64,000 nt of DNA from Liolophura sinensis (lineage: Eukaryota; Mollusca; Polyplacophora; Chitonida; Chitonidae): assembly GCF_032854445.1 (NCBI RefSeq), contig NC_088298.1:9597504-9661503 (forward strand), given 5' to 3'. The position numbers and the translations under genes are program-made. Each line of letters opens with the position of its first letter. Position 1 is the stretch's first letter. The notes beneath the pieces were generated by a model that saw only the letters and a list, made by a program, of their open reading frames with translations, had not been told where the DNA came from and searched no databases. Positions 14,401-63,590 of the stretch are shown piece after piece.

Positions 14401-17400
14401 CTGAGGACTGTCTAACTCTTAACCACCGGTAACCATGACAACACTCCCTGGCACTGCCTGTGCTCGCTGGGCTGCGGTCACTATAGAGAAAGGGTTAACA
14501 CAGCCGGACTGCTGTACATGCTGTGGTATAGGCAATGTATATGCAGAGACTGCCTAAGGGTGAAGGCTTATGCAAATGATGTAGGAGCATCAACAAAGAA
14601 TAGCTTAAGAACACCTTGGTCTTGATATTGTTACCTTCTCTTGAAAATAAATTGCAAATTATTTTGTTGGTTCCCGAAAAAATATTGAGTAAAATACAGA
14701 AGAACTATACCGGTTGGATATTCGTACATTTGTGTTATTTTTCTGTTGAGTAACTTAATTGCGAGGTAAAAACCTTTGCAATCAAGACGTCAGATATATC
14801 ATTGTAGAGATTTGCATTTCACGGACTTGTTAACGATTGAACATTAGTACATATGTGATATAAATCCTGTCAACCATTCGTCGATTGGTGAATGAGTTTA
14901 CCTCCCGAAACACTATAGTTTGACAAAAGTAGTGCCAATCTAACATATTTATTACCATGTATCGGTAAGATTTGCAGTTGGACGCCATATTTGTGTGTAG
15001 CTACAAGTCATGCGTAAATCGCCAGAACGTTTTGAGTTAGCGGTCTTTATGCCCATGGGCATCTGGGCAAGTTTTTTGGAGCAAAAGTCAAGCAAGGCTT
15101 TTATGTTCAAACCTTGAATTGGACACGCTGTCGGGGCACTTGGGTAATTTTAATGCCAGCTCCCATCCCGGATTCCTAGGGGTCAATAGAAGAAGGTCAG
15201 GGGTGAAAGGTTATGCAATAATTTGACCTTATGCGAAACAGCTGTACTTGCTGTCAGGCTGCGAAGCATGGTCACGTGACACGGCTATCTGGTCGTGCTG
15301 AATGGCCCTGTTGGTCACGTGATCAACAGGCTTTCGGGGCGTTACTGAAATTGGGACGAGCCATGCCATGTGATCCTATTGGAGTATAACGTTGGCTCAA
15401 TCCGGCTTTGCTAAGCATTGAGCATGCTGGTAAAGTTGCTTATTTTACTGGTACTGGGATTGGGTTTTATTTTGTGGGTGTGGGAGGGGGGGGGGGGGCG
15501 CTCTTTGACTTCAAAGAAAAACAAGTAACAACATGTTTCTTTCCTCACTGATCACAGCAAAATTATCCCACGGTACCTCGTTGCCATAGCGATTTAGCAA
15601 GAACCAGGATTCTTGTGTTGCGAATCTATTTCTAGATTGAATAACTGACAAAAAAAAAAGAAAGAAAAAAAAAACATTTATGCAGTTTCCGGACAGGAGA
15701 ATACAAGCAATGTTAACAAGCAGTCACAATGACTTACTAACAATATCAGATAAACTATACTTTACAGATGAATATATTGAAGAATTCTTATAAATACCGT
15801 TGTATTGTAACAAAATATTCAGTACTCCGTACCGAGATATTTGCCAAGATCCCAGTAGGGTGAAATATTCTCTGAGCTGCGTTAAACACCAACAATCAGT
15901 CATTTCACTTACGCTTTCATACACGCATCAATTATTTACTTTTGAGAAAGCATTTCAAGCATGTATAGCAAAAGTAAACTTGAACAACTCGTGTTGTATG
16001 TGTGATCAATAATCAATTTTAGTGAATCAATAATTAATTTGGAGAGTCCCACAGTGAATCAATATAGCTGTTTTTGTATATTCAACAGGCGTGCCCTATA
16101 TCCCCAGTTACATGGACTTGACCAATGGACCCGAGCCGTGTGTCGTATGCGGGGACGCGGCCACGGGGTACCACTACAGATGTATGACCTGTGAGGGCTG
16201 TAAGGTAAGACGTCAACATCAGTCACCAGTCGTCTGTTGTGTAGGGAAAATAATGTAGATTTTGCGCAGGCTTTCCACCTTTGGTTGGACAAATGATTCA
16301 TAGACTTGCTGGTATACACATACTTGAACTACGTTGCGTTTTGGACGAAGTCCGTAGTATAAATCTAGAATATGACTTATAACAGTATTAGATAATTATC
16401 CTATTGTGAACAGTGTTTCAAATAAATCTTAGAAAGAGGTCAATAATTTGTCATATGATCTCAACTAAGAGTGACTTTTTCCCTATATTACACACATGCG
16501 ATAAAGCAATTGCTCTCAGTTTGCAGTAAATGATATATCTTCCAAAGAATAGAACGAAGTTTCTGAGACAGAATTTCTTGGATAAACTTAAAAAAACTTA
16601 ATAAAACCTGAAGGAAAGAAACCTAAATATGTTGTCCTTTGTACCTATTAGTCTATATAGAATGTCATTTCTTTCTTGTCTTCAGGGTTTTTTCCGAAGA
16701 ACGATACAAAAGAATTTACGGTACCATTGCAAATGGAACAAGAACTGCGTCATTGACAAGACAACACGGAACCAGTGTCAGGAATGTCGCTTCCACAAGT
16801 GTATAGCCGTTGGCATGGCAACAGACTGTAAGTGTAACAATATGGACATGCATTTCTAAGGCTGAAATATTGCAGATGTGTCGTTGAACCAAAATAAAAT
16901 TCGTTTTATTTATTCATTCATTTCAAGGGCGAAATACAACTGTCAAAAAGTGAGTTTCTTCCAAATTTAGGTACCTGTAATTCTCAATTACAACTGAAAT
17001 TAACCACGAATGTTGTTTCACTGTAGTGGTACTGAATGAAAAGCAGCGCGTTGCCAAACGGAAACTGATAGAAGAAAACCGAGCCAGGCGCAGAAGCGAG
17101 CACGTCGAAATTCCGGAGGAGTCTCCGGAAAAAACCGACAACAATGTTCCCGTACCGGAAGGGATGACTGACAACGACCGGCAGTTGATCAGCAATATAA
17201 TCACCGCCTATGAATACACAAGTGCAAAGATCACAAACAACTATTCCATTGTAAGTTCTTTAATTTAATTTAATGCTTTATTTATTTACAGAGGACTGCC
17301 CCGGTCAGTCGCCACGAGGGGTTTTCCTCAATACGTTTATTTACATTTAATTACAACATTTGAAAAATGGTATTTTGAAAATAATATTTGCTAACTAACA

Positions 17401-20011
17401 AGTGTATAGTAAAAAAATAAAATGAAGTAAAATTAGCCCAAGAATTAAACCTTACAGATATGCACAAAAAAATATGATAGATTGCATATTAAATGGTTAA
17501 ACCTTACAAGTATATTAAGAAAAAGATGTAATACCAATAGCGAACATCATTTCTATTAATGGCTGAATCTGTCGGTAGTCCGGGTGTAATTGTGGTTTGA
17601 AATAATTTAATATTATCCAAGAGAACCAAATCTTTAGATCCCAAAAGTAACACTTTACATAGGTATTTGGAAATGAGTGAACCAGCCAAAAGGAAAGACT
17701 GTTGAACTCCTGGACACATGATTAATCTTTGCCAGTATATAAGTGCGAAAATATATTTTACTGTTCATAGGGATTTGTCAGTTCAAGAGAAAACAAAGAA
17801 GTCAGTGTCCTCAGACTATATTAAAGGTCTGTAAATGACCTAAAACTTGACCTTGAAAGGGGTAATCTAGGGACACGTAAATGTCATGAAATGTCACAGG
17901 GTACTGAAACTCATATTTTGCTATAGTGTTATAGCTATATTCTATAGCTATATAGAATGTAGGTTCATTCTACCTTTCAAATAAACCTACAAACTCATGT
18001 CCCAGGTCCGCAGAACTCTCAGAATCAGAGAGAATCAAAGAGTAACTTTCTCTTCGACGAGAAATTTTAAGTTATTTACAATAAGTCATTCATTCAGTCT
18101 TTAGATAAATGGTTGATTGAAAATATGTAGGTTATTAAGAGAGTCATTACTCACCGTTTGATAATTACAGCCTGTCTGTGACACAAGTGATGAAAAGCTG
18201 AGACAAGCCGATCCCGAGCTCTGGCATCAGTTAGCGGAAGTCATGACGCCCTCTATCGTCAAAGTCGTGGAGTTTGCCAAAGGTGTTCCGGGATTTACTG
18301 AGGTGAGCAAAAGTTTGGAATATCCATAAAGTGGTGTCCTGGACTGCAATTTTGATATATGATAAAGAGCGTGAAATTCCAGTAAACCTAAATTCCTCTC
18401 TGAAGCAAGTTTTGAGTGTTATAGGCAACATTTATGTGTACATCCTGTCAATTTGAACGACGAAATTGGCATTACATGAGCCATTTGTATGTCCCTTTTA
18501 AATCAATACATTCCTCACACTATAATCCTGGTCATCGTCATGTAACTGACATTTTTTTGTACGGCGTAAAACTCCAATCAAATAAATAAATAAATAAAGC
18601 CACGCATGAGCTCTATTAAAGGTATCTCGTATGTGAATGGTGGATGCATCGAACTAAGGGGGATAACCGATTGACCATTGCGAATAAAGTAACAAATCTG
18701 CTTGTCAACGGATGTCTGTGCCTTAACGGACGCCTACGAGTCAAAACCAGAATATGATATAGGTTTATTGTATAAATTAAGACGACGTCATATATTTGTT
18801 GAAATCAGAAAAACAAAAGTCAAGTATACTGGAACTGATTATGGTATACCCATCGAATTAAGAATTAAAAGTTTTAAATGCATGGTTAACAGTTTAGATA
18901 TAATTTTGTAAAAGAAATCAAAATCATTAAATCCAGCAATTCATCGGTCAAGCGATCTCTCAGTTAATGAATCGATCTATCAGTCAGTGAAGCGATCTAT
19001 CAGTCGGTCGATCTCTCGATCAATCAATCTATCTATCAATCAACTAACCAACAAATCAATCAGTCAATACATATAATCAGTCAGTTCAATTAATCAATCA
19101 ACTTTTTCTGCCTACAGCTGAACGTCGACGACCAGATCCTGTTATTGAAATCGTGTTGTATGGAGATTATGTGCCTTCGCGCCGCCTGTCGTTACGACCC
19201 CTTTAACCAGATGCTGACACTACATAACGGGATGACCCTCCACAGGTCACAGCTCTCTCGGGGCAGTCTTGGGGTGCTGGTGGAGCCCATCTTCGAGTTC
19301 GCCGTGGGGCTGTCAAAACTACAGCTGGACAGCACGGAACTGGCTTTACTTGCAGCCGTCCTTCTGATGCAGTCTGGTGAGTTGTTTGACCCTCTTGCCT
19401 TGTTTTATTGTTATGATACGTTAAATGAGATGACAACACGTCATTTTGAAATCTAGACCAATGATGTCTGATGTATTGCAATCAACTTCACTGACTTTTT
19501 TTTTACATACTTCTGCTAAAGCCGTGGTGCTTGGGGCGTGTGCAATTTGCTGTATTTAAGCATTTATAAGAACAGTTAGAATAAAACCCTAACTCCCCAG
19601 TCCCCCCCCCCCCACCTTAATGATGGCTGTCGTCGTAAGTGAAATATTCTTGAGTACCGGTAAGGCGTAAAACACCAATCAATCAAATATATAAATAAAT
19701 ATAATTTCTTCTTTTGTTTTCCAGATCGATCAGGTTTGCAGGAACCAGGAGCCGTGGAGAAAATCCAGGACGCCATATTGGGTGCATACAAAAGATACAT
19801 CGCGGAGAAGCGCCCATTACAGCCTGTTCATTGGGCGAAAATCCTCATGAAAGTGACGGACCTGCGCACTATCAGCACGCGCTATGCTGAGAGAGTTCTC
19901 TGTATCCGGTTAGACTCTTCAGGGGAAATTCCGCCTCTTTTCCTCGAAATGTTCAACGAAAACTCAGACCAGAGTGAAATAGGGCAAGCGGAAGATATGG
20001 CTATTGAATGA
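11426..20011 (+). CDS. THR: Thyroid hormone receptor (NR1A nuclear receptor), 7 coding exons
   Basis: Ligand-regulated nuclear transcription factor. Coding exons: 11426-11519, 16089-16204, 16686-16827, 17027-17250, 18171-18302, 19118-19376, 19725-20011. All junctions are GT-AG and the phases match, giving 417 aa. The start at 11426 (MASSSPRNG) has A at -3 and G at +4; the in-frame ATG at 11351 has a poor context. The zinc-finger domain is residues 49-114, with cysteines 49/52/66/69 and 85/91/101/104 and P-box CEGCKG. It is split by the classical intron after GCK. The hinge [11 protein letters not shown] and the helix-12 motif PPLFLEMF (392-399) are typical of THR. The ligand domain is about 195-400. 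Oddities: the linker between the fingers (NLRYHC) is two residues shorter than the NLHPxYSC I recall for vertebrates, and three ligand-contact positions differ (see findings). Subfamily assignment is firm; hormone binding is uncertain. Confidence 0.95.
12240..12330 (-). pseudogene. Short reverse-transcriptase-like fragment
   Basis: On the minus strand a block reads [15 protein letters not shown], like the conserved QG-x-PLSP-x-LF block of reverse transcriptases, most like non-LTR elements. No flanking catalytic block is recognisable, so it is a broken fossil fragment at best. It lies in receptor intron 1. Confidence 0.35.
12947..13178 (-). mobile_element. SINE type A in receptor intron 1
   Basis: Inverted, almost complete: AAATA tail, GTACTCAAGAATATTTCAC, and tRNA-like head ending CTGAGCCACGGAGGCCCC. 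A small internal deletion removes part of the middle. Confidence 0.9.
15271..15323 (+). promoter_or_regulatory. Paired CLEAR-type E-boxes in receptor intron 1
   Basis: GTCACGTGAC at 15271-15280 is a perfect palindromic CLEAR/TFEB-type E-box. GTCACGTGAT at 15314-15323 repeats nine of its ten bases 43 bp on. Confidence 0.35.
18515..18598 (+). mobile_element. SINE type A tail in receptor intron 5
   Basis: Diverged 3' end: TACGGCGTAAAACTCCAATC followed by AAATA repeats. Confidence 0.7.
18945..19105 (+). repeat. ATCAATC/ATCTATCAGTC microsatellite in receptor intron 5
   Basis: Degenerate 4- to 11-bp repeats ending 12 bp before the exon 6 acceptor, so the acceptor region is embedded in simple sequence. 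Confidence 0.85.
19606..19702 (+). mobile_element. SINE type A tail in receptor intron 6
   Basis: 3' end with GTGAAATATTCTTGAGTACC and AAACACCAATCAATCAAATA, 22 bp before the last exon. Confidence 0.75.
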
Positions 20012-27837: not shown

Positions 27838-30800
27838 TCAGAAAAACTTCACCCCTTCATTACCCATAAGTTCAGCTTTCCTGTCAACCTCTAGCGTCTT
27901 CAATGCTCGCAACAATAACCATTCCTCCAAACCATGGAATTCTGAAAAAAAAAGACAGATACAAATTTTTTCAAATACATTGAAGAAAAAAGGCACTGCA
28001 TATCTCAGTAATGAATCTAAATATATTTATGTATTTATTTATTTAATTCGAGTTTTCCAACATGCTCAAGAATGCGTGCATTTAAATTATACGATGGCGG
28101 ACTCCATTAGGGTGGGAGGATACCAGGCTAAACCCACGATCACCCTCAGTTTGCTGACAGACCTGCCCACATACGATCGGAGAGGAAGCCAGCACGAACT
28201 GGACTTAAAATCACAGAGATCACTTTGGTGTTAAGGCTCCAGTAAGGAGTCTAAAAACATTTGAAAGATGTAAGGTTTATTTATTTATTTGATTGGTGTT
28301 TTACGCCGTACTCAAGAATATCTCATTTATACGACGGCGACCAGCATTATGGTGGGTGGAAACCGGGCACAGCCCGCGGGGAAACAGACGACCATCCGCA
28401 GGTTGCTGTCAGGTCTTCCCACGTACGGCTTGAGAGGAAGCCAGTTTGAGCTGGACTTGAACTCACAGCCTGGGTCAGACTCCTGGGTCATTAGGCTGCG
28501 CTAGCGCGCTAACCACCTGAGCCATGGAGGCCCCTGAAAGATGTAAGGTAGATGTACATCTAAGAAAGAGTCACATCAGAACAAAAATGCTTAGAAGGCC
28601 AGTCTATTTATGGATAATATTGAAGAAAACGGGAAGAGCTAAAGTATATTTGTGTTAAAAGCCGAACAGAAAGGACAAAATGAAGTTTTATCTGCACAGA
28701 TAGAATGAATGAATGGTTGATTAGTGGTTAATGTCACATTGGCAATATGTCTGCCATATTAAAGTGAGAACAATGTAGAACCAGGAAACTATTGTCTTGC
28801 AAAATTAGAACGATAAGACTCAAGATCAGAACAAACAGGACATAGACTACAACTCACTAACTAAATAAATAAAAACATATAAAGGTATTTTTAGAGACAG
28901 TTTTTAATAATCTTTCTCCTGATGCCCACTTTGTTCTTATGCAGTCTTTTCATTTATTGGTGTGTACAGTTACCTTGATTTGAGGAGTCTTCACCCTTTG
29001 TGATCTCAAACAGAGTACATACCGAGCCTGTCATGTTGTTGTCCGAGGCCTGAATACAGGAAAAACACCAGTAACATGTTTTACTAATGTCTTATAACAA
29101 TAAAGAGAACATGTTTGTAATTCTAATACAACCGTCACTGTTTGATTCATCAACCTTTCCCTTTAGCCCATACATTAAGAACTATTTATTTACTTGAAGG
29201 AGATCAGTTTTAACACTAAAAATAACTGGATTACCTGTATTACACCACCAACCTTTTGCAAGTTATGGACGAACTTTGTTCTTGTCATATTTACCCATTT
29301 GATTGTAAGGTTACCCCACTCCTCAGGGCTTCTGGTCCCTCGTTATATGTGTTCCTGTCATATTTACCATTTGTACATAAGGTTACCCCACTCCTCAGGG
29401 CTTCTGGTCCCTCGTTATATGTGTTCCTGTCATATTTACCATTTGTACATAAGGTTACCCCACTCCTCAGGGCTTCTGGTCCCTCGTTATATGTGTTCCT
29501 GTCATATTTACCCATTTGTATATAAGGTTACCTCACTCCTCAGGGCTTCTGGTCCCTCGTTATATGTGTTCCTGTCATATTTACCATTTGTACATAAGGT
29601 TACCCAACTCCTTAGGGGATCTGGTCCCTCGTTATATTCCTTCCTGTTATATTTACCATTTGTACATAAGGTTACCCAACTCCTTAGGGGTTCTGCTCCC
29701 TCGTTATATTTGTTCCTGTCATATTTACCCATTTGTATATAAGGTTACCTCACTCCTCAGGCGTTCTTGTCCCTTGTTATATTTGTCCACATCGTATTTA
29801 CCCATTTGTACATCAGGTTACACCACTCCTCGGGAGTTCTGGTTCGGTTATATTTGCCCACATCATATTTACCCATTTGTATATCAGTTTACCCCACTCC
29901 TCAGGGGTTCTGGTCACCTGTTATATTTGTTCCTGTCATATTTACCCATTTGTATATAAGGTTACCCCACTCCTCAGGGGTTCTGGTCCGGTTATATTTG
30001 CCCACATCATATTTACCCATTTGTATATCAGGTTACACCACTCCTCAGGGGTTCTGGTCAGGTTATATTTGCCCACATCATATTTACCCATTTGTATATC
30101 AGGCTACCCCACTCCTCAGGAGTCCTCCACATGATTAAGCACTTCTTCCGACTTTTGTCCTGCCATTCTAAATGACCTACAAAATGAAAGGCATGACATT
30201 AATGACATGAAACATGACCAGTAAATACTTTGTGGTCAAAGTGAAGAAAGAAGACATACTTTATAAACTAGAATTCCGTGTAAAATTCATTTAATTATGG
30301 AAAAAAAAGACAAAGAGAGTAGAAAAGGGGCATCTACATTTATTTACAACCATAACTTGTGTGGATTCCATAGGCCAGTATAGCTCTTGTTTCCTTCAGG
30401 GCACAGAAAAACAAACTGCTTGCAGTACTACAGGGCCCGTTTTTACAAAGCTACTTATGTTTAGCAGCTGCTGACATGGCATTTAGCGTCTTTGAACTCT
30501 TCAAGAGGAAATGGTGAGACAAAGTTTTATGAAGGCGGCCGAGTTTGTGAAGGTTTGAAAGTGACCCAGTTTATGAGGGTGGCTGAGCTTGTGAAGGTAG
30601 CCCAGCTGGTGAAGGTGGCCGAGTTTGTGAAGGTTTGAAAGTGGCCCAGTTTGTGAAGGTGGCCCAGCATGTGAAGGTTTGAAAGTGAACCAGTTTGTCG
30701 AGGTACACCAATTTGTGAAGACTGTCCATTTTTCCAGGTGGTTTGATATAATGATTGACAGACAGGTGTCTTATGCAATACTCAAGAATCTTTCACCCAT

Positions 30801-36425: not shown

Positions 36426-38756
36426 TTACACCGTCAGCTCGTTTTCCTGTTCCGGTCTGGTGTTCACCGTACTTGTCTGCACCCTGTTTTGGCGGATCCC
36501 TATCATCAACAGCAACTCTCTTCGAAACCTACTTCCGGTCAGGCAAAAGAGTACAAAGTTGATGGAGTGGTTTGTGTACATGAGTAAATTCCCGATGGTA
36601 AATGCGAGATTCCACGAAATTTGTTCGTTTTTGTGCTCTTTGTCGTATTCCTCAGCTATTTGAATAATTGTAATTGGAGCAGTGCACAAAAGCGTTACGG
36701 TGGAAACCACAATTAACGTTTTTGTCATTTTAAAAGTCTGACGTCGGAAATTTCTCGTTGCACAGTTGACCGCGTTTTTTCTTTTTAAAATAATGGAGCG
36801 TATTATTAGGAGATTGAAAATGAAAATCATTGAATCGGGTAATAATGAGTAGATCGTGAAATCAATCCATGGCCATATGGCGTGGAAAAAATGTGATGAT
36901 TTTGGTGTTGGAATACAATCCAAGCTGTCTGTTGTAGAATTGTCTTCTTTGCCAAACGTATAAAATATTGCCAGATGGGCGTTGACGAAAAGCATGATCC
37001 CAGAAACTGCGATGACCAATCGCTTGGCAACCTTTTTGCTACAAGTTTTAATTGACATGACTGGGTGACACGTGGAAATGTATCTGTCTATCGTCATGGT
37101 AACCACTATCCAAATAGAAATGTCTGTGCTTAGATAAGTTAAAAAATCCATTAGTTTACAATCCAACCATGCGCGCGCATTAATACCACCTGAAGTGACA
37201 GTCAGTAGAAAGATCGGAAACAAACCGAAGCACAAACAAAATAAATCCGCAACCGAAAGACACGACAGATAGAAACATGTGGTTAACTGGCGCAGGCTTC
37301 TCCTCTGCATCATCACCAAGGATACCGAGTTTCCGACCAATCCGACGAAGAGTAGCATGGGCGCGAAGATTGACTGAAATATGTCGGCTGCCCTCGTGCC
37401 GTTGAAACTAGTTGAAGGCTCGTCTCTGATTGGCTCAGTTCTTAGGAGTGACAGGTTCCAAAGCAAGATGTGGTCTACTTCAGGATCCTGGTCTGTCCCT
37501 GGCAGGCAATGCACACGGCCCCTGGCGACAAATACGAAAAATAATAAATCAGTTACTTAAATGTTGCCTTCTATACATTAGCGACAGTGCACATCCGGGC
37601 ACTTCACTCGCCTTCCGATATCTGCTAGCAGACGACAAGATGAAAATACCATTAGAAGGTATTGTAGTGAAATGAACATTGGAAAACATTCTGAGAACTA
37701 TAAGTGGAATAATAAGTGGAAATTGCAGGATGTTAGATAACAGAACATTCTGTACAACTACAGTCTGGCTAGTTTTTTTTTCTGTGCGAAGCAGTTTGTA
37801 TTAATTTCCAGGCTATTTAGTCATCATTTTCCTTGCTGTGTTTAAGTACTGCACTCTGTCAGACTAGGTTATGCCAGCTGGTCAGTTGCAACAGCATGTA
37901 TCCTAAAGAAGCTCGTAGAGCACAAAAGACTACAGCCTACAGAGTAAATCCAGAGCAGCGACGGCGGCGTGATATATAGTAGCTGGTAAAATGGTCACAA
38001 GTATATAAACACGTCAAACTTGCCCTATTATGTCTAGCCATACTCCTCATAGTGGATGGTCCGCCCTTTACGCTCTCTATACATCACTGCCAATACTAAC
38101 AAGCTGGACCTTTGGGGTCTGTAGGAAGCATCTAGGCTTGTTTAAGCTTAGCCTCACCAATTTCTGTGCAGATGTTGCTAGCGTTGTCAGTGATATTAAT
38201 CGAACGTGGAGAGCACTGCATGTGCTCTAAGGAGTATGATGTCTGTCCCGAAATGAGCACAATTTTTTCTGTTCCCAAGTTATCGGGGCCGATCTGGTGG
38301 CAAAGAAAACCACGCATCATATGAACTATAATAAATCTATAAGAATCCCTTGTTGGCTCAAGTAATTAAGGCCATTGACCTCTGAGGTCACATGTTCAAA
38401 TTGGTTGTGGCTTTGTGTCAGAAGATATGCCACGTGCTTGCCGAAAGGCGGTGGTTTATCTCTGATGTCCTTCCGGTCATGAGTCTAAAAAGTTATCGAG
38501 TTCCACGGGCGTGAAACACCAATCAAATAAATAAAAGGAACAGACTGAGATTAAGTGTTAAACAGTCTTAGATATGTCTTCTGGGCGCTTCTGCTGTGTA
38601 GATAAAGTTCACTTTTAATATTCTCAGTTCTAGAATAACGAAAAAAGATAATAAACAAATATGATATATAAAAGAGAGGGATTCCTTTTTTTTTTGGGCA
38701 TTCAAATGACGATGTGTTGAATAATCTTACCTTCCGAAATAAGACAATTGGTTCAT
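36426..38756 (-). CDS. Class A GPCR, peptide-receptor-like, 2 exons
   Basis: Seven-transmembrane receptor, probably for a neuropeptide; ligand unknown. Exon 2 (36426-37521) holds the whole membrane domain. Its open frame reaches only a GTG at 37514, so the ATG must be spliced on. Exon 1 (38731-38756 from its ATG) reads MNQLSYFG plus AG, and joins in phase to acceptor CAG at 37522-37524, giving 373 aa. Seen: N-glycosylation sites NLS and FNGT before TM1, TM1 GN (N73), TM2 SVAD (D101), cysteines 130 and 211 for the extracellular disulfide, DRY at 154-156, CTAP in TM6. TM7 reads NHSINFVLF in place of NPxxY, then helix 8 GSRFRREL. This TM7 form is common in FMRFamide/TRH-like invertebrate receptors. 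Exon 1 stays open upstream of the ATG, so a longer N-terminus is possible. Class A is firm; subfamily is a guess. Confidence 0.88.
38345..38537 (+). mobile_element. SINE of a further type (D) in GPCR intron
   Basis: Head TTGGCTCAAGTAATTAAGG and ACATGTTCAAATTGG (A/B-box-like), unrelated body, but the tail GTGAAACACCAATCAAATAA is shared with type A. GPCR intron 1 (37522-38730) holds otherwise nothing I recognise. Confidence 0.6.
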
Positions 38757-43420: not shown

Positions 43421-46400
43421 ATGATATCCTTGCACAAAATGCTGAAACAGAAGGGCACTGGCCCACCAAAGAAAGAACCAGATGTGGAAATCAAGAGAAT
43501 GTCAATTCGGGATAAATTACTTGTAAAGGGTAAGTTACACTGTTACGCTTGTATAATTCTATGAACATAAAATATGAATATGTTTAAATGTTGAACGCTG
43601 GTATAATCATTATTTTATGAAGTTTGTGGTATTTATTTTTAATTGACAACAAAGTAACTCCCTAATTCCTGGTCATGTATTTATTTAATTGATTTTTTTG
43701 ATATATCACTCAAGAATTTCTCCCTTTAGTCATGGTGGCCAGCTTTATGAGTGCCCAGCATAAACCATCAACCTTTGGCAAGTTACTGAAAAACTTACCC
43801 GAGTGATATAATGTTTTCCACATCGTGTGGTTTTCAACAACCAATGTAGCCTATCTGTATTAGCGCTGACCTTTTTTCACCCCTTTCGCCTATAGGGCTA
43901 AACCTGTGAGAAATGTTTTAACCATTTTGACAATCATCTAGTCACAACAAAATTCACAAGTTGCCAACAGAAACTGAAAGCAAAGAATTGGATCAATCAA
44001 AAAGTAGCGTGTCACATGCGACTCAGGAGTCTCTTACCATTACAGTCACTGTGAGTTCCTCCAGCTCACACTGGCAGATGCCCGTGGATTCCCCTACCAT
44101 AATGCTGGCCGACATTGAGTAAATGAAATCTTCTTGAGTATGGCATAAAACACCATTCGAATGAATTAATAAGCAAATGTGAAGTTAACATTTACAGCCC
44201 GGGTCCCTTCCCCCAAAATAGGTTTGCTGATAGTAAAACCAGGACAACCAGGGCTAACTTTTCCCGCTCGTGAACTATGTGTGGTGTGGCATTTGAAAAG
44301 GGGAGCAACTGAGGACCCACATATATACATGTAAACACACACAGACATCATGCTTTCCCTAGGTTATTTCCCTTAGTTGGGAACCGCATGTGCACACAAG
44401 TACAGCACCGACACAATATTGTATAAAAGGGAAAATGCCCCTGAAAACTAATATTCTTTATGTATTAGGATGATATTGCTTCACCAAGATGATGACAATA
44501 AGGGAAAACAGTATCACAAAACTGAAATTATGTTCAAAAAATCTGAGAATGGAGGGCTGTAGAGCATGTGGACTGCTTTATTATACCCCGACCTCATATA
44601 GAACTGATTGGTTGGACTCACACTCTTTAATTGATCTACCTGGTCAGTGTATTTTGTTTGTTCAGTACATATCATTGTTATGTTTGTAAACAGAAGTACA
44701 AGAGATGGAAGACAACCTCCCACGGACGTGTCGGCTGAGTTTTGAAGACATCAATCAGCTGTCAAAGTTCCACTTGACAATAACACCTGAGGAAGGTTAC
44801 TGGGAAGGGGGCCGATTTAAATTTCTCATCGATGTTCCAGACGATTATAATATTGTGGTAAGTATGGAAAGCAGAACACTAGCGAGAGCTGTGACAGTTT
44901 GTACAAGTATGTAAATTGACACAGTGAATTGAGAATAATGTATGTTTTTATTTATTTATTTATTAATTTGACATGTTTCATGATTGTTTAGTGTCCTGCC
45001 GACATGACTGAAATCTTTTTTTAGTGATTAGGTGGTCATGTTTACTTATAGTGTGAATTGCAGTAGACCTGCTCATAGTAAATGACTGCCATTTAGGAGG
45101 TCCATTTATACATTCCAAATCCTCTGATTTGTTTTATATCAGTCATTGATATGTGTTTTATTTTCTGTTCAGCTGCCCAGAGTGTACTGTACCACAAGGA
45201 TAAGGCATGGCATATCAGTCATAGATGTGTGTTTTATTTTCTGTTCAGCTGCCCAGAGTGTACTGTACCACAAGGATATGGCATGGCATATCAGTCATAG
45301 ATATGTGTTTTATTTTCTGTTCAGCTGCCCAGAGTGTACTGTACCACAAGGATATGGCATGGCATATCAGTCATAGATATGTGTTTTATTTTCTGTTCAG
45401 CTGCCCAGGGTGTACTGTACCACAAGGATAAGGCATGGCATATCAATCATAGATGTGTGTTTTATTTTCTGTTCAGCTGCCCAGAGTGTACTGTAGCACA
45501 AGGATAAGGCATGGCATATCAGTCATTGATATGTGTTTTATTTTCTGTACAGCCTCCCAGAGTGTACTGTACCACAAGGATATGGCAGGGCATATAAGTC
45601 ATAGATATGTGTTTGATTTTCTGTTCAGCTGCCCAGAGTGTACTGTACCACAAGGATATGGCATGGCATATCAGTCGTTGATATGTGTTTGATTTTCTGT
45701 TCAGCCTCCCAGAGTGTACTGTACCACAAGGATATGGCATGGCATATCAGTCATAGATATGTGTTTGATTTTCTGTTCAGCCTCCCAGAGTGTACTGTGC
45801 CAGAAGGATAAGGCATGGCATATCAGTCATTGATATGTGTTTGATTTTCTGTTCAGCTGCCCAGAGTGTACTGTACCACAAGGATAAGGCATGGCATATC
45901 AGTCATAGATGTGTGTTTTATTTTCTGTTCAGCTGCCCAGAGTGTACTGTAGCACAAGGACATGGCATGGCATATCAGTCGTTGATATGTGTGTGATTTT
46001 CTGTTCAGCCTCCCAGAGTGTACTGTACCACAAGGATATGGCAGGGCATATAAGTCATAGATATGTGTTTGATTTTCTGTTCAGCCTCCCAGAGTGTACT
46101 GTACCACAAGGATAAGGCATGGCATATCAGTCATTGATATGTGTTTTATTTTCTGTTCAGCCTTCCAGAGTGTACTGTACCACAAGGATATGGCATGGCA
46201 TATCAGTCATAGATATGTGTTTTATTTTCTGTACAGCCTCCCAGGGTGTACTGTACCACAGGGATATGGCATGATATATCAGTCATAGATATGTGTTTTA
46301 TTTTCTGTACAGCCTTCCAGAGTGTACTGTACCACAAGGATATGGCATGGCATATCAGTCATTGATATGTGTTTTTTTTCTGTACAGCCTCCCAGAGTGT

Positions 46401-49400
46401 ACTGTAGCACAAGGATATGGTATAGCATATCAGTCATAGATATGTGTTTTATTTTCTGTTCAGCCTCCCAGAGTGTACTGTACCACAAGGATATGGCATG
46501 GCATATCAGTCATAGATATGTGTTTTATTTTCTGTACAGCCTCCCAGGGTGTACTGTACCACAGGGATATGGCATGATATATCAGTCATAGATATGTGTT
46601 TTATTTTCTGTACAGCCTTCCAGAGTGTACTGTACCACAAGGATATGGCATGGCATATCAGTCATTGATATGTGTTTTTTTTTCTGTACAGCCTCCCAGA
46701 GTGTACTGTAGCACAAGGATATGGTATAGCATATCAGTCATAGATATGTGTTTTATTTTCTGTACAGCCTCCCAGGGTGTACTGTACCACAAGGATATGG
46801 CATGGCATATCCGTCATTGATATGTGTTTGATTTTCTGTACAGCCTCCTAGGGTGTACTGTACCACAAGGATATGGCATGGCATATCAGTCATTGATATG
46901 TGTTTTATTTTCTGTACAGCCTCCCAGGGTGTGCTGTACCACAAGGATATGGCATGGCATATCAGTCATTGATATGTGTTTTATTTTCTGTACAGCCTCC
47001 CAGGGTGTACTGTACCACAAGGATATGGCATGGCATATCAGTCATTGATATGTGTTTTATTTTCTGTACAGCCTCCCAGGGTGTACTGTACCACAAGGAT
47101 ATGGCAGGGCATATCAGTCATAGATATGTGTGTTATTTTCTGTTCAGCCTCCCAGAGTGTACTGTACCACAAGGATATGGCATGGCATATCAGTCATTGA
47201 TATGTGTTTTATTTTCTGTACAGCCTCCTAGGGTGTACTGTACCACAAGGATATGGCATGGCATATCAGTCATTGATATGTGTTTTATTTTCTGTTAAGC
47301 CTCCCAGGGTGTACTGTACCACAAGGATATGGCAGGGCATATCAGTCATAGATATGTGTTTTATTTTTTTTTTCAGCCTCTCAGAGTGTACTGTACTGTA
47401 CCACAAGGATATGGCATAGCATATCAGTCATAGATATGTGTTTTATTTTCTGTTAAGCCTCCCAGGGTGTACTGTACCACAAGGATAAGGCATGGCATAT
47501 AAGTCATAGATATGTGTTTTATTTTCTGTTAAGCCTCCCAGAGTGTACTGTACCACAAGGATATGGCATGGCATATCAGTCATAGATATGTGTTTTATTT
47601 TCTGTTAAGCCTCCCAGAGTGTACTGTACCACAAGGATATGGCATAGCATATCAGTCATAGATATGTGTTTTATTTTCTGTACAGCCTCCCAGAGTGTAC
47701 TGTACCACAAGGATATGGCATGGCATATCAGTCATAGATATGTGTTTTATTTTCTGTACAGCCTCCCAGAGTGTACTGTACCACAAGGATATGGCATGGC
47801 ATATCAGTCATTGATATGTGTTTTATTTTCTGTACAGCCTCCCAGGGTGAGTGAGTGAGTGCTTGGGGTTTAACGTCGTACTCAACAATTTTTCAGTCAT
47901 ATGACGACGAAGGAATCATTAGGGTGCATGCACGTGTAATGTGCCTCCTTGTTGCAGGACGGATTTCCACCGCTCTTTTATTTAGTGCTGCATCACTGAG
48001 ACGACTTACCGAAGGCAAGTAAGCCGCCCCGCCCGAGCCATTATACTGATACGGGTCAACCAGTCGTTGCACTATCCCCTTCATGCTGAACGCCAAGCGA
48101 GGAAGTTACAACTTCCTCTTTTAAAGTCTTAGGTGTGACTCGAACAAGGATTGATCCTGGATCTACCGGTCCTGAAGCGGACGCTCTACCAACTGTGCTA
48201 TCCGGGCCGGTCGCCTCCCAGGGTGTACTGTACCACAAGGATATGGCAGGGCATATCAGTCATAGATATGTGTTTTATTTTCTGTTCAGCCTCCCAGAGT
48301 GTACTGTACCACAAGGATATGGCATGGCATATCCGTCATTGATATGTGTTTTATTTTCTGTACAGCCTCCCAGGGTGTACTGTACCACAAGGATATGGCA
48401 TGGCATATCAGTCATAGATATGTGTTTTATTTTCTGTTCAGCCTCCCAGGGTGTACTGTACCACAAGGATATGGCATGGCATATCCGTCATTGATATGTG
48501 TTTTATTTTCTGTACAGCCTCCCAGGGTGTACTGTACCACAAGGATATGGCATGGCATATCAGTCATTGATATGTGTTTTATTTTCTGTACAGCCTCCCA
48601 GGGTGTACTGTACCACAAGGATATGGCATGGCATATCCGTCATTGATATGTGTTTGATTTTCTGTACAGCCTCCTAGGGTGTACTGTACCACAAGGATAT
48701 GGCATGGCATATCAGTCATTGATATGTGTTTTATTTTCTGTACAGCCTCCCAGGGTGTACTGTACCACAAGGATATGGCATGGCATATCAGTCATTGATA
48801 TGTGTTTTATTTTCTGTACAGCCTCCCAGGGTGTACTGTACCACAAGGATATGGCATGGCATATCAGTCATTGATATGTGTTTTATTTTCTGTACAGCCT
48901 CCCAGGGTGTACTGTACCACAAGGATATGGCATGGCATATCTGTCATTGATATGTGTTTTATTTTCTGTACAGCCTCCCAGGGTGTACTGTACCACAAGG
49001 ATATGGCAGGGCATATCAGTCATTGATATGTGTTTTATTTTCTGTTCAGCCTCCCAGAGTGTACTGTACCACAAGGATATGGCATGGCATATCCGTCATT
49101 GATATGTGTTTTATTTTCTGTACAGCCTCCCAGGGTGTACTGTACCACAAGGATATGGCAGGGCATATCAGTCATTGATATGTGTTTTATTTTCTGTTCA
49201 GCCTCCCAGGGTGTACTGTACCACAAGGATATGGCATCCCAATATAGATGAGAATGGAGAAGTCTGTCTGAGCCTCTTGAGACAAAACTCATTAGATAGT
49301 ACGGGTAAGTATATTTTCAGAGATCTGAGAAGGATTCCACGTAGCTGATTGAAGTAAAAATTTGGTATATGATTTCAGAGCCTTTTAAGTATTTTGGGGC

Positions 49401-51572
49401 TTTAGAAGTTAAAACGTTGACCACCTCACCAATATTATCTTACAATGAATGGGTCAAAATATCAACTTTCCTTATCAGAAATTAAGCAATGTGACAAGAC
49501 TTGAAATTTTGACTTGTGGTTAATGACCTAAAGTTTCACATGTGAGTTTACTTACACGCAATCTGAGTTGATGGCAAAATGACAGAAGAGAGTGATTAGC
49601 CCTGTGCCAGTTTCATTACTGTGTGTGCACTTGGCAGCTCTGGCTGCTAATTATCGCCACGTGGGGTCAAGTCGCTGACAGTGAGGTGTGCCGGTCTCTC
49701 GACTAGTAGGCCTACATGTACATCTCTAAATATACATATATATATGAGTGAAATTAAAGAAAGTATCAAGTATCAGGCAATGTCTATTGCCAAGCTGTAA
49801 ATTTCAAATATTGTCTGAAAGCATGACCACGCCAAACAAGCGTAAAATGATGCCTGGCAGTCTAGGGTTCAAATCCAGTACATTCCTTTCCATTTCTTTT
49901 CATGCTTTTTCCAATTATCATGAACTATATAGACATCAGGCTAAGTTGTAAAAGACTAGTGACATGGACCCTGTCAACGCTGTTGGATAACAGCTTTAAT
50001 TATTATCACCATTATCATCATTATCATTGACCACACAGGAATATATGTTATATGTTTCTTGCATTTCAGGCTGGTTCCCAACAAGACAGCTGAAAGATGT
50101 GGTGTGGGGTTTAAATTCACTATTTACTGTAAGTATCGTAATTCTTTGCATGTTTACAAGGAATTTATTCAGACACATTCTTAAGGCTTCATTCTGCATA
50201 GATTATTAAGATTATACTTGTTATGAAGCCCTGAAATTGGCCAGTCCAACCTATGTAATTTTGTCTGAAAAATCTGAGTAAAAATGTGCATAAGTTGCAC
50301 TTTAAGTTGCTTTTTCGTAAGAGAAGGGGTTGAGGAATGAGGGTAAGAGTTTTGTCCACAAGAAAAATGTGATCAGATACAAGTAGTGCAAATCTGACAA
50401 ACAAAGACTTCATTTGTGACACAATATTTTGGCATTTTATAATATTTTGCCATCATAGAGTGCCAAAATAAAATGCTGATATACTGGGTCCCAATGAAAT
50501 CTTTGTTTTTAGAGTTACATGACTTGTGTATCTATGCCCACTGGGCAAAGAAGGTTTCTGTCTGTATTTATGTCTTTGTGTTGTGTGGATAGTTTTTGAA
50601 TTCGACAGTGTGGGAGGTCTCTCCTGTCTTCAAGCATGCACATGCACAAACAAGAGGTTATAGTTCAACTGAATCTTAGTTTATGCACACTGCGCTAAGT
50701 TAGAACTAATAGAAACTGAGAGCAAGCGGATCTGAGAGCAAGCAGGAGGGTGTTTTGCAGTTTAAGGCAGTTTCATAGATTCTGATTGGTTGTTGGTTTT
50801 CGTGCAACAACAGCTTTAAATATTGTCAGATTTTAATAAAATGTGGTGCATAGGTTCATATTGTGACTTCTAAAATCAGGTTTCCAAACATGCCTTGCTC
50901 CATGCTTTGGCATATTTAGTACAAGTGGTGGATTACCCTCGGGTTCTGCCCGGTTTCCTCCCATCACAATGCTGGAAATATTCTTGAGTACGGCATAAAA
51001 CATCAATCAGATACATAAATATTTAACATGAGATATAAATTCTGTGAAAATGATGTTTCAGGATCTATTAAACTTTGATGACCCTTTAAATGTAGAAGCA
51101 GCAGAGCATTACGAACGTGATAAGGTGAGTTCCAAAGTTTCAAATATTGTTTTTGATGTAAGAGCTAAATACATACCTTCTTTGTACTCTCTTGTAAGGG
51201 TTGAAATGAACGAATTAAAGGTAAAAACACTCTTCATCTGAACTTAGAGCATCTGTATTTAAACAGCTTGATAAGCAGACTTATAACCTTTTGAACTACA
51301 GTCCTCGCTGCAGTGGTCTGATCAGCCCTCAGTTGCTACTGCACATGAGGTGTGGGTTCAAAACCAGCCTTTGATAGAGAATTTGTAACTGTTTGGAGGG
51401 TTAGTGACATTATACAGTCTACCATTTATAAAAGGCCACTAGTCTTCCACCAGTATTGTGTGCATATCTGTACCTGATACATGGGTATTTGTGTAAACAT
51501 GTGTTTCTTTGTTTGCAGGATTCCTTTAGGTCAAGGGTGAAGGAATATATTCAGATGTATGCCAAAAGATAG
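43421..51572 (+). CDS. UBE2F: NEDD8-conjugating enzyme UBE2F, 6 coding exons
   Basis: E2 enzyme that takes NEDD8 from the E1 on its active cysteine and, with RBX2, neddylates cullin 5. Coding exons: 43421-43529, 44694-44857, 49202-49304, 50070-50128, 51062-51124, 51519-51572. All are GT-AG and phase-matched, giving 183 aa (human 185). Seen: N-terminal tail with [32 protein letters not shown] at 103-105, active-site Cys113 in GEVCLSLLR, and the family hallmark [23 protein letters not shown] split over two exons. The start ATG lies six bases after acceptor CCAG at 43411-43414, so a 5' UTR exon upstream is required. Intron 2 (44858-49201) is filled by 48 upstream copies of the next exon's acceptor junction; the copy read into the rest of the exon is the last. 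Confidence 0.96.
43680..43790 (-). mobile_element. SINE type A, old, in UBE2F intron 1
   Basis: Inverted and eroded: TTTATTTAATTGATT, CACTCAAGAATTTCTCCC, GTGGCCAGCTTTATG. Confidence 0.55.
44015..44172 (+). mobile_element. SINE type A, shortened, in UBE2F intron 1
   Basis: GCGACTCAGGAGTCTCTTACC, TAATGCTGGCCGACATTG, ACACCATTCGAATGAAT. Confidence 0.75.
45127..49237 (+). repeat. 76-bp splice-acceptor satellite in UBE2F intron 2
   Basis: 49 tandem copies of a 76-bp unit, counting the true exon start as the last. Each unit has about 36 nt identical or nearly identical to the first 36 nt of UBE2F exon 3 (codons for [12 protein letters not shown]), then 40 nt of intron: a branchpoint-like TTGAT or variant TAGAT, the pyrimidine stretch TTTTATTTTCTG and an acceptor ending TTCAG, TACAG or TTAAG. 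The array fills about 94% of the intron. A 363-bp SINE interrupts one unit at 47850-48212. The many open frames of 60-130 codons here are artefacts of the repeat. Confidence 0.97.
47850..48212 (-). mobile_element. SINE type B inserted in the UBE2F array
   Basis: Full-length tRNA-headed SINE on the minus strand. The head has the A-box-like TAGCACAGTTGGTAGAG, the B-box-like GATCAATCC, and the tail ends in CACTC repeats. It is flanked by a 13-bp target duplication GCCTCCCAGGGTG (47837-47849 and 48213-48225), which lies in the exon-like part of a decoy unit. The insertion is therefore younger than the array. Confidence 0.93.
50930..51022 (+). mobile_element. SINE type A, 3' end, in UBE2F intron 4
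   Basis: TCTGCCCGGTTTCCTCCC, TATTCTTGAGTACGGCAT, CATCAATCAGATACATAAAT. Confidence 0.78.
51315..51395 (+). mobile_element. tRNA-like SINE head fragment in UBE2F intron 5
   Basis: GCAGTGGTCTGATCAGCCC and GTGTGGGTTCAAAACCAG look like A and B boxes of an eroded SINE head. Confidence 0.35.
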
Positions 51573-51940: not shown

Positions 51941-52467
51941 GATGTTCTTGTGCTGAGGATGTGTCCATGCTTGACAAGTATGAGCTGTTTGAACATTACA
52001 TACCTGTGCTTGACAAGGATGTGTTCATGCTTCACCAGGACGTGCCTGTGCTTGACAAGGATGTATTCATGCTAGACAAGGATGTGTCCGTGCTTGACAT
52101 TGATGTGTCCATGCTTGACAAGGATGTGTCCGTGCTTGACAAGGATGTGTCCATGCTTGACCAGGATGTATTCATGCTTCAGCAGGACGTGCCTGTGCTT
52201 GACAAGGATGTATTCATGCTAGACAAGGATATATCCACGCTTGACATTGATGTGTCCATGCTTGACAAGGATGTGTCCATGCTTGACAAGGATGTGTCCG
52301 TGCTTGACAAGGATGTATTCATGCTTCACCAGGACGTGCTTGTGCTTGACAAGGATGTATTCTTGCTAGACAAGGATGTGTCCATGCTTGACATTGATGT
52401 GACAATGTTTGATGACAATTTACCTGCCTTTGACGTGGATTTGTCCATTCTTGACAAGGATGTCAGC
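51941..52467 (+). repeat. 21-bp minisatellite downstream of UBE2F stop (likely 3' UTR)
   Basis: About 25 copies of a 21-bp unit close to GATGTGTCCATGCTTGACAAG. It lies between the UBE2F stop (51572) and the AATAAA at 53015, so probably in the 3' UTR. The unit is a whole number of codons and stays open in one frame (ATG 51967 to 52569), coding seven-residue repeats of the form DVSMLDK with hydrophobic residues in a/d-like spacing. No family matches. Confidence 0.9.
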
Positions 52468-58041: not shown

Positions 58042-61000
58042 TCAAAGCCACGATGGTCTTTCGCAGATGAATTTCTTTGAAACAGAGCAAGGCAGGTCGT
58101 TCCAATACCAGCGTTCTTGCTTGTAGTAATATTTCAGTTCTACACAGCGTTCTTGACCAAACTGATTATTGGGCTCATCCGGTGCCCACTGGGCGAAGCG
58201 GAAGGGCCTCTTGTCTTGATCCCAGACGAACTTGAACTGGGTGTCAATGTCATTCCCTCCGATCAGAAAGTCGCTTTGGCCTGCGGAGAAAACCAAATAA
58301 AAAATTGGTAATAAGTTGAACTATAAGTATTGGGTTGATTCATTGACTAATTAAAATTACGCTGGCTTCAACACCCAACAACCTGGCTCCAGCACCCAAC
58401 AACCTGGCTCCAGCACCCAACAACCTGGTTCCAGCACCCAACAACCTGGTTCCAGCACCCAACAACCTGGCTCCAGCTCCTATAACGAAATTATAGGTCC
58501 TATTGCGTAAATCACCACACGAGTGTGGCCGACCGCTTGTTGCCCACGAAGGCGCCACAAATCACACGCAGTGAGAAGAGCAGGGGAAACTATAAATTGT
58601 CCCACAAGCAACTTGGGCTGGAGAATGTACAAACTCCCTGCCTAAGGCTGAGACTGAACCCTTACCTTGTATATGTGTTAACAAATAAACGCCTACACAC
58701 ATAGTTTACAGCGACTGAAACTAGAACAACAGTGTTCATACTTACGCTTCGCAACTTCCCTCAGCAGATAGTCATTTTCTTCTTTCGTCTCTATCGAGAC
58801 AAGGTAGGAGTTTCTCATCCAACATCTTTTCTTAGATTCGAACCAATCAGCTCTCACCGTGCTGAATAAGTAACACCGGTTCAGTTTTGAAATGAGTGTG
58901 AACCCTTGCGGACAGACTGAAAAACAATATTTAAGTAAATGCTGAATTCCAAAGATAAGGTTCAAAATACAAAGCATCTGTAAAGTAAATCCGATTTTTT
59001 TTTATCCGGTAGAAAATACAAGGATTCTTAGATTTAAATGCATCTTATGTACATGTATTTTAAACGTGATGACACAGAATTTGAGTTTTTTCTAGACCAT
59101 TAACGTCTAGTAAAATGCAACTACCATCACTGAATTTTACACCTAATTCTGCTTATCCATTGTGCCCCAGGGGGGTATAGGTAATTTTCGGTCATTTCAG
59201 TTTTAATTATTTAGTCATTATTGTCCTAAACGTGACGGTTAATGAACTAATTGCGTGAAATACGATAATTTTAATGCAATTTTTTATTACGCAAGAATTA
59301 ATTGCCAGACCACATCAAGAGATAGGATATACCTAATAGAGCATTTACAGCCCACCATTATGATGCTGGTTTATTGGCAACGTCAGCTCAGCGCTGACCG
59401 AATCAGACAAATTGTTTTGGTCTTATTGAAAACTGTGTATACTCGAGAGTGTGTAATTCGTGCTCATTTCCCCTCACTCCTGATAGCCTCGGTGATCCCC
59501 GACACGATTTCTATGCCCCACCCACATCTCCATCCGCAAACCCTACCTTAAGCGCGTAAACGCATAAACCTCACCGCTGTGATGCAATGTCTTTCAACAT
59601 GGTGTGATACAAACTTACCAGTGAAATAATTTGACAGATGTACCTACAGTCTAAAACCTGTTTTCTGTTAGTTAAGTTTTAAGAGTGAAGGAAACTTTAA
59701 GCATTGCAGTCGTTCTTCTCTCCTTCATACTGTAATGGCCAGAAACGTGGATGCCGTGATTACGGAAGTAATTCCCTACAGGCATGCGCGGATGTCGTTA
59801 CTGGATTCACAAATGTCATTCTGTACTTACCATCGTTGTCTACCTGAAAAGGAGAGACAGCAGAAACATCAGTCAATATTTACAACTCAATATGTCACAC
59901 AGTTCTCGATCTAAGACGATCCAATTGAGACACAATTATCTTGGCATAACATATATTATGTCCCCCCAATGTTAACTCTTGGGGACCAAAAACAAGTGTT
60001 TCGATTAAGTTTCAGATGATGGCAAGTCCAAACTGGGTTTGTTGAATCGAGCCCTACATGTGTACTATGTCAGGAGATAACAATATAACTTTCATCTTGC
60101 CTACGTGTAAGAAAGAGCTCAAAAGTCATTCCAACGGTTGTGTTGCATTTTCAGTTAATTTTATTAAAAGTTGATATAGCTCGTTTATGCGCATGAGTAC
60201 GTTCTCTACACGAACAGCCTATACACTTGACAAGAATTTCTAGAGGACAACCAAACAACTCAGAAAATTAGGACGGCTTCATGTAAAGAGAGACAGTCAG
60301 TAGTTTTAAATGATGACAGAAATGCGTAAGGTATAATGTATGCGGATAAGTTTAGTCGATACCGCAGAGGTGAGAGACAATAATTTATTAGTTGTCGCTA
60401 AATGAAGTATATATCTCAGGTTTCGCATAGCTGACACCCAACCGCAGCATAATACATAGTTCAGTAAACCCCGTATTTAACTGCATTTGCTTCACAAGAA
60501 AAAAAATTAAAAGATAAGTAACTATAGCTTCCAGTGACTTCTCCGGTAGCACTCGTTTTACTTATTACTTTAAGGCGTATGAAATCACATTCAATCTGCA
60601 AACAAAGCCTATACACTGTAAACAGCATGTGAGTTATTTATCAATTCTGTAAAAATTAATTTTATGTAGCAGCATATTTATATATATTTTTTCCCCTGAA
60701 TTCATCTCTTTGCAAACCTAAAATTTAATATAATTAAAATAATTTCATAAATTGCTCTTGTTTGCTTTTGCCAATTCCGCGTGAACTGGGGAAAAGGAAT
60801 AATAAATTAGGTACGGGTATTTAGAGTTTTGTTCTCCCTGTGTCTAAATGGAATAAAAATTTTAAATAAAAAAAACACAAATATAGAAGTTTGATATATA
60901 AGTTCAGACAGCTAAACCAATCCAGAAAATATCATGTCTTTAGTGAAACACGAACTCTCCACCTCGTAGTTATCGCAAAGACATTGCATTTCATGCAAGG

Positions 61001-61716: not shown

Positions 61717-63142
61717 TATCGCGGTATTAAACTTATAATAAATTGTCTCTAACAATTCAGACGCGTATTATTCGTCGTTCTATACAGAGCATACGCTACA
61801 CCTACAACCAGAAACAACTGACGAAATGACAGTGTTTCACAAGCCACGCCGTTTTTATCGGGCAATAACTGCTACCGCTATTAAAATTCTCTAACAAAAC
61901 GAACCAATGTATAGACCTGAATTTAAACGCTGTCACGTCGTTAGATAACGGTTAGTGAGATAATTTTCCTTCGTGTTTATTTCTGACGACGGTAAAGCAA
62001 TTCTTTACACATGTAATGGGTGGATGTATAGGTAATTTCGACGATAATTTAGTAATGGATTGTAATTGACAGTTGGTCCCTAATTGTAACCAGCATTTAT
62101 GTTGTCAGTTATGGTCGAGATAGATGGCGACTGGACGGCATCAGCTCGCATCATTTTGCTGTCACGACATGTACAAATACAGATGCTGAGCAACCCGTTA
62201 ACGATCTGGGAGATTGACGATCTGTGCGAAATCGAGTCGCTGTGACGAAAAATTGCTATGTTACATGAATTACACGACTATAACGCTTGTCAAGTTTGAC
62301 AAATTTCATATTTTCATGAAGTCACCAGTAGTCGAAATAAGGAATGACACATGCACAGCCTAATCCTGGTTACGTCAAAAACATATAGGGACGGAGGAGT
62401 GCCTCCGAACTTCCGAAAATTGAGAGGCCAATATGTGAAATCACAAACCACCCCCAGCGCCAACCCCAAGTACTTTTCAAGTCGACCATGTCCAAAAAAA
62501 AAGTTATATATACAATATAGGATATCCAATGTTCACTGCATTGTGGTGAATTTTATCAGAATCGACGGTTAAAACATTTTCTTTAAGTTGATCAAACATG
62601 CAGATCAACGAACTGTAATTGGTAATGTATTTTAAATTACGGTAAAAGCGGTAATGTCTTTAATTTTATAAGATTTGCAATCGGAAAATTTATTTTATCG
62701 TGCAGTGCGACTCAGCATTCAACCAGAGTGAAAAACATGCACGTCCGCATGAATACCTCTCTCCCAAAAGCCATTTATTGTTTGTTAAATGTGACGACAA
62801 CACAGCATCTTGAGTAATTCTGGACCAGTGACGTCTAATAACTTTCAGTCAACATCCCTGCACTTTTTTAACCTGATCCTGCTTAAGCCCTGGAACTAGG
62901 GGGGCGTCTAATTTGCTACTATTTATGCATTTACATGAACTGTAGGAATAAAACCGTGACTGAAGTAGATTCATAAGAGGCTGTATTTCACTATTTCACA
63001 TGTGACTATTTGCCAGTTATTCACTGTCGTCACGGTTCTGGTTTTACTCTATAGCTGTATTTTTTAAATTATATTCAAACGATCGTCGCCTAGGTCTATA
63101 CGCACAGCAATAATGATTCGCCAACACAGCACGTTTGCCCTG
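61717..63142. other. Upstream of the lectin gene, non-coding
   Basis: The lectin promoter is expected near 61750-61900 (a weak minus-strand GATAAAAA at 61851-61860). No further gene seen up to the 24-bp minisatellite. Confidence 0.35.
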
Positions 63143-63590
63143 TGCCATGACATGTCCGATGGCCTGTTCCATGACATGTCCGATGGCCTGTTCCATGACA
63201 TGTCCGATGGCCTGATCCATGACATGTCCGATGGCCTGTTCCATGACATGTCTGATGGCCTGTTCCATGACATGTCTGATGGCCTGATCCATGACACGTC
63301 CGATGGCCTGTTCCATGACACGTCCGATGGCCTGTTCCATGACATGTCCGATGGCCTGTGCCATGACACGTCCGATGGCCTGTTCCATGACATGTCTGAT
63401 GGCCTGTTCCATGACATGTCTGATGGCCTGATCCATGACACGTCCGATGGCCTGTTCCATGACACGTCCGATGGCCTGTTCCATGACATGTCCGATGGCC
63501 TGTTCCATGGCATGTCCGATGGCCTGTTCCATGGCATGTCCGATGGCCTGTTCCATGACATGTCCGATGGCCTGTTCCATGACATGTTCC
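63143..63590 (+). repeat. 24-bp minisatellite, open in several frames
   Basis: About 19 copies of a 24-bp unit close to CCATGACATGTCCGATGGCC plus TGTT, varying at a few sites (CATGT/CACGT, TGTTCC/TGATCC). Eight codons per unit leave it open on both strands. The plus frame (63113-63727, 204 codons) reads HDMSDGLF repeats. No splice signals or family support a gene. Confidence 0.93.

Follow-up and report, generated by a model that had tools for sequence, protein, structure and literature searches.

A 49-unit mirage-type minisatellite across a 3′ splice junction of UBE2F in the chiton Liolophura sinensis

The UBE2F gene and its junction-spanning array

The 64,000-nt stretch of DNA analysed here, referred to below as the window (Liolophura sinensis assembly GCF_032854445.1, contig NC_088298.1, positions 9,597,504 to 9,661,503 of the forward strand), contains a UBE2F gene in which the end of intron 2 and the beginning of the following exon are repeated in a long tandem array. 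A tblastn search with the human UBE2F sequence as the query matched six exons on the plus strand around the array. Coding exon 1 extends from the ATG to a GTAAGT donor (43421..43529) and is followed by coding exon 2 (44694..44857, donor GTAAGT at 44858), coding exon 3 (49202..49304, donor GTAAGT at 49305), and coding exons 4 (50070..50128), 5 (51062..51124) and 6 (51519..51572, with the stop codon TAG). When joined at their GT/AG borders, the exons form one open frame of 552 nt including the stop, which encodes 183 amino acids. Among solved structures in the PDB the protein matches UBE2F with an E-value of 1.8e-75 and UBE2M with 1.1e-27, and in the protein database it is 100% identical to the annotated NEDD8-conjugating enzyme UBE2F-like of Liolophura sinensis, with one entry named Liolophura among the 120 listed of 863 matches. 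Both results bear out the gene identity given in an initial annotation of this DNA, and as judged from these comparisons the gene is UBE2F, coding for a predicted NEDD8-conjugating E2 enzyme, rather than UBE2M or one of the ubiquitin E2 enzymes. The conserved region with the HPN motif and the putative catalytic Cys aligns to the solved UBE2F sequence. The Cys of the GEVCLSLL motif, which lies in coding exon 3, is the predicted catalytic residue of an E2 enzyme.

Tandem Repeats Finder (TRF) places a single tandem array at 45136..49237 on the plus strand, with a period of 76 and a score of 5253. Read by their acceptors in a sequence scan, the units number 49, with the first exon base at 45173 in the first unit and at 49202 in the last; the 54 copies given by TRF correspond to the full length, insert included, divided by 76, and 49 is the actual unit count. 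Each 76-bp unit consists of 40 nt of intron end and the 36-nt start of UBE2F coding exon 3, the latter encoding 12 residues or a close variant of them. The acceptor AG is kept in all 49 units, the triplet at the acceptor being CAG in 45 and AAG in four. The last unit continues into the genuine exon 3 of the intact gene, the first 36 nt of which are common with the array, and 48 decoy acceptors thus precede the true one. Intron 2 (44858..49201, plus strand) measures 4344 nt to the true acceptor and 315 nt to the first decoy. The initial annotation had described a 49-copy tandem array of a 3′ splice site inside UBE2F, with the intron-exon junction itself and the first 36 nt of the exon as its unit; TRF and the acceptor scan confirm the former, the composition of the unit agrees with the latter, and the continuity between unit and exon is exact at the genome level. 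Its designation of the exon as exon 3 is correct for the third coding exon, a qualification that the name needs. Ordinary intron filler was rejected as a description of the unit, which holds coding sequence continuous with the exon.

Nearly all units are spaced 76 nt apart. Of the few that deviate, one is 1 nt short, unit 30 exceeds the period by 6 nt through a 5-nt insertion and an extended T run, and unit 36 (acceptor 47835–47837) is split by an insert. The latter is a SINE-like element (short interspersed nuclear element) of 363 bp on the minus strand (47850..48212), recognized by its target-site duplications and tRNA-like head. The 13-bp duplication GCCTCCCAGGGTG was read from the sequence at 47837–47849 and 48213–48225, and the head at 48137–48207 on the minus strand scores 29.8 bits against the Rfam tRNA family (gathering threshold 29, E-value 0.036); ARAGORN found no tRNA. 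Within the window, neither strand matches the array unit outside the array itself. All 50 matches listed by a search of the whole genome, which scores the best candidates only and skips common words, likewise fall within the UBE2F array.

Decoy acceptors and variation among the units

In their local signals the upstream copies look like competing acceptors, in line with the 48 decoys before the true site that the initial annotation had proposed. Five decoys equal the true acceptor from −20 to +3, so that local sequence cannot separate those from the genuine site; two are the same as the true site across all 40 nt of the intron part, and in seven a single one of the 76 positions departs from the true unit. 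Pyrimidines occupy 12 of the 15 positions from −18 to −4 at the true site and 10–14 in the decoys, compared with 8, 11, 6 and 11 at the other acceptors of the gene. A branchpoint-like TTGAT is shared by the true unit and 25 of the 48 decoys, including the nine nearest to the true unit, and the branchpoint-like site that had been ascribed to the repeat unit therefore holds for the genuine unit and for only these 25 copies. When exon 2 was spliced in silico to each acceptor, all 48 decoys led to a premature stop that would ruin the protein, and only the last acceptor gave the full product. Each extra unit shifts the reading frame, since 76 is not divisible by three. The array itself contains 47 of the 48 stops and the exon 3 that follows it the remaining one, and all of them are located at least 178 nt upstream of the last exon junction. 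Messages with such premature stops would be unstable through nonsense-mediated decay.

Variation was compared by column across 48 aligned units, with the first unit left out because its 5′ edge is not repeat sequence. Variable columns amount to 16 of 40 in the intron part and 15 of 36 in the exon part (Fisher p 1.0), with a mean diversity of 0.063 and 0.062, respectively, and with unit 30 also removed the counts are 14 of 40 and 14 of 36 (p 0.81). The intron and exon halves vary alike, which gives no sign of selection on the decoys. The AG columns are invariant, yet so are 24 of the 40 intron columns, and AG invariance was on this account rejected as proof of function. Selection on the exon part of the decoys was likewise rejected, since the three codon positions have 5, 6 and 4 variable columns out of 12 each, with no difference between exon and intron. 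Diversity in the exon part is 0.093 at third codon positions against 0.045 and 0.047 at the others, a weak hint, drawn from few columns, of past coding constraint. Overall, the decoys bear no clear sign of being either kept for use or purged, and the proposal that the array acts as a regulator of UBE2F output is unsupported by the equal variation of the unit halves and by an AG invariance that is not unusual among the columns.

The units are nonetheless far from uniform, with 40 of the 49 distinct in sequence. Blocks of 3–4 units recur at an identity of at least 98.5%, and the identity of a unit to the true one rises toward the latter (Spearman 0.64, 47 units), which suggests that the 3′ boundary of the array has not been spared homogenisation. 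Both the recurring blocks and the gradient are as expected from tandem turnover. A tree of the units, built from an alignment with a misplaced border of unit 30, has little structure.

Acceptor choice and competing explanations

The UBE2F array is a minisatellite of the “mirage” type, of exceptional length, whose unit straddles the intron 2–exon 3 junction. Mirages were described as minisatellite duplications of intron-exon boundaries in amphioxus genes, where splicing is reportedly undisturbed; the genes are Adh3, the globins BflGb6 and BflGb9, and TnC and PGBD5, the last two from the second report (PMC3087553, PMC3902484). As in amphioxus, the chiton locus has minisatellite-like boundary copies, many of which keep AG/GT in the reported cases, beside a genuine junction (PMC3087553, PMC3902484): the unit comprises the intron end and the exon start, the genuine junction is found among the copies, and the splice signals are kept. 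BflGb6 likewise repeats the 3′ end of an intron together with the start of the exon, but with 6 and 3 units of 150–160 bp in its two haplotypes, whereas the chiton array has 49 units of 76 bp and a SINE (PMC3087553). The amphioxus mirages are also reported with support from reverse-transcription PCR, while the chiton array is described from the genome sequence.

Related structures have been reported elsewhere. In human segmental duplications, internal tandem repeats at exon-intron boundaries were associated with 27 intron modifications, and for 66% of these an alternative transcript retaining the repeat also exists (PMC2812944). Expansion of a junction minisatellite affects gene structure there as it does in the chiton, but the human repeats have a mean unit of 30 bp and 4 copies (over all gene-modifying repeats of that study), lie in recent paralogues, and the modifications are read as new introns (PMC2812944). 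Tandem genomic duplication as a mechanism of intron gain also multiplies splice signals, but there the duplicated AGGT is exonic and a new intron arises, whereas the chiton array lengthens an existing one (PMC3443670). In C. elegans, an intronic minisatellite has been linked to multiple splicing decisions (PMC4039745). The initial statement that no locus of this kind had been described does not hold in view of the boundary repeats published in amphioxus and human genes; a literature search, with subscription journals mostly outside its coverage, yielded neither a case in a mollusc nor one with 49 copies. Mirages as described in amphioxus, and the human repeats related to them, are extended by the array to a mollusc, with a copy number no less than 8 times that of the globin BflGb6 (6 and 3 units).

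The genome in which the array lies is rich in minisatellites. The chiton assembly comprises 609.5 Mb in 632 scaffolds, built from PacBio HiFi reads with a mean length of 8,347 bp at 14x coverage (PMC11068029), and the species of the published assembly was later corrected to L. sinensis (PMC12441733). In a sample of 20 stretches of 10 kb at set positions of the genome, TRF found 31 arrays with a period of at least 30 and at least 2.5 copies in the 200 kb; three stretches had none, one sampled array, truncated at the edge of its stretch, had 53 copies of a 49-bp unit, and the window itself holds five. This density is observed despite a published repeat table that gives 0.08% for “other” repeats including simple ones (PMC11068029). 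For the 28,010 protein-coding genes predicted across 609 Mb (PMC11068029), a random 76-bp unit would span a splice junction about 4% of the time, an estimate rather than a count, which assumes six introns per gene. Given that chance and the dense minisatellites, some junction-spanning arrays are expected by chance. A strict signature scan for other junction arrays returned UBE2F only in 264 kb (the window and the 20 sampled loci), with none on the reverse strand and none in reversed or complemented controls. Such a scan would miss degenerate or donor-side cases and yields no frequency, but it counts against mirages being common.

The two ends of the array offer the splicing machinery opposite choices. 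The last acceptor implies a 4344-nt intron but a 103-nt exon ending at the GTAAGT donor at 49305, and exon definition therefore predicts its use, whereas the first decoy, with its 315-nt intron, is nearest to the upstream donor and is predicted by first-come intron definition. The annotated L. sinensis UBE2F-like model corresponds to use of the last acceptor, and together with the intact gene it favors exon definition. The most satisfactory explanation, which we consider probable, is that of a tolerated mirage-type minisatellite with use of the last acceptor. A tandem expansion straddling the intron 2–exon 3 junction would have lengthened the intron from an estimated original size of approximately 0.3 kb to 4.3 kb, exon 2 would most likely be joined to the last acceptor via exon definition, and the upstream copies would behave as intron filler. 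A message spliced to an upstream copy would run into a premature stop and would probably be degraded, and the array would be tolerated rather than selected. This explanation draws on the 49 junction units at one locus, the intact 183-residue gene, the annotation with the last acceptor and the unproductive outcome of all decoys, as well as on the equal variation of the intron and exon parts, the density of minisatellites in the genome and the amphioxus mirages with their reportedly intact splicing. It also points to tolerance of such structures, even within a conserved gene, where a genome is rich in minisatellites.

Several points weigh against the tolerance explanation. The predicted acceptor choice rests on sequence and an annotated model, and intron-definition or first-come splicing would favor the first decoy with its 315-nt intron. 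All 48 decoys retain AG and are not decayed, which would be expected of a young array and equally of one in use. In the human cases an alternative transcript keeping the repeat also accompanies 66% of the intron modifications (PMC2812944), and mirage copies have been suggested as possible cryptic sites (PMC3087553).

Among the alternatives, the decoys might act as a rheostat of poison acceptors, where some fraction of the transcripts, regulated or constant, is spliced to them, runs into premature stops and thereby sets UBE2F output, with the copy number as the tuning element. The unproductive outcome of all 48 decoys would suit such a role, as would the identity of five decoys with the true site between −20 and +3, that of two across the whole 40-nt intron part, and pyrimidine tracts of 10–14 out of 15 against 8, 11, 6 and 11 in the other acceptors of the gene. 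Precedents may be seen in the alternative transcripts that often accompany human repeats at exon-intron boundaries (PMC2812944) and in C. elegans, where an intronic minisatellite is enriched close to regions with multiple splicing (PMC4039745). However, the unit carries no sign of constraint and the amphioxus mirages are reported not to disturb splicing (PMC3087553, PMC3902484), and we regard a rheostat as unlikely. A more specific form, in which the 48 decoys are a length-tunable brake, with a share of UBE2F transcripts caught at the upstream acceptors and destroyed and with the array length, expected to vary between animals, setting neddylation capacity, is rated as decidedly improbable. The locus is a striking but classifiable object, for which a regulatory role is possible but unsupported.

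It is very unlikely that the array was inflated by mis-assembly from a much smaller real copy number. While coverage is only 14x (PMC11068029) and one mirage was aberrantly assembled in a genome draft (PMC3087553), the HiFi reads have a mean length of 8,347 bp, twice that of the array (PMC11068029), and the 40 distinct units of 49 together with the internal non-repeat insert mean that read overlaps can be anchored.

An equally slight chance is given to stepwise or recursive splicing via a microexon made by the SINE. Behind the intact acceptor of unit 36 at 47837, a pattern scan found a potential 9-nt in-frame microexon, CCTCCCAGG (47838..47846, plus strand), followed immediately by the donor-like AGG|GTGAGT of the SINE junction, with GTGAGT at 47847, and as exon 2 ends in phase 0, the 9 nt would keep the frame and add the residues PPR. 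Exons of 9 nt are, however, rarely recognized and the annotated protein lacks the extra residues, so that use of the predicted microexon is unlikely.

If the assembly is right, a single transcript would carry 49 similar acceptors in line that differ mainly in position. The acceptor chosen within the array would separate first-come models, which favor the site nearest to the upstream donor, from exon-definition models, which favor that nearest to the downstream donor, and would do so in an unmodified gene where the 40 distinct units serve as internal markers.

SINE-like families and neighboring features

One SINE-like family, which has a gagtgagtgagtg end, is represented in the window by four copies, at 24701 (−), 34886 (−), 54924 (−) and 47868 (+). 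The (GAGT)n end of the family carries the donor-like GTGAGT, and other copies might in the same way seed donors. Nine further sites in the window match the 42-base core of the SINE with no more than 11 mismatches and have a flank of another kind, rich in attta/gatt, which suggests two related SINE families with a common core.

Other tandem arrays in the window are located at 29275–30120 (72/217 bp), 52007–52463 (21/147 bp) and 63139–63587 (24 bp). Downstream of UBE2F, an open frame of 217 aa encloses the 147-bp array; several frames are open across the 24-bp array. Ten open frames were scanned for neighboring genes, five of them being without a match above the curated cut-off. The neighbors of UBE2F comprise a nuclear hormone receptor with zf-C4 and ligand-binding domains at 16605–20008 on the plus strand, a rhodopsin-family G protein-coupled receptor at 36429–37556 on the minus strand, and a C-type lectin at 58045–58320, likewise on the minus strand.

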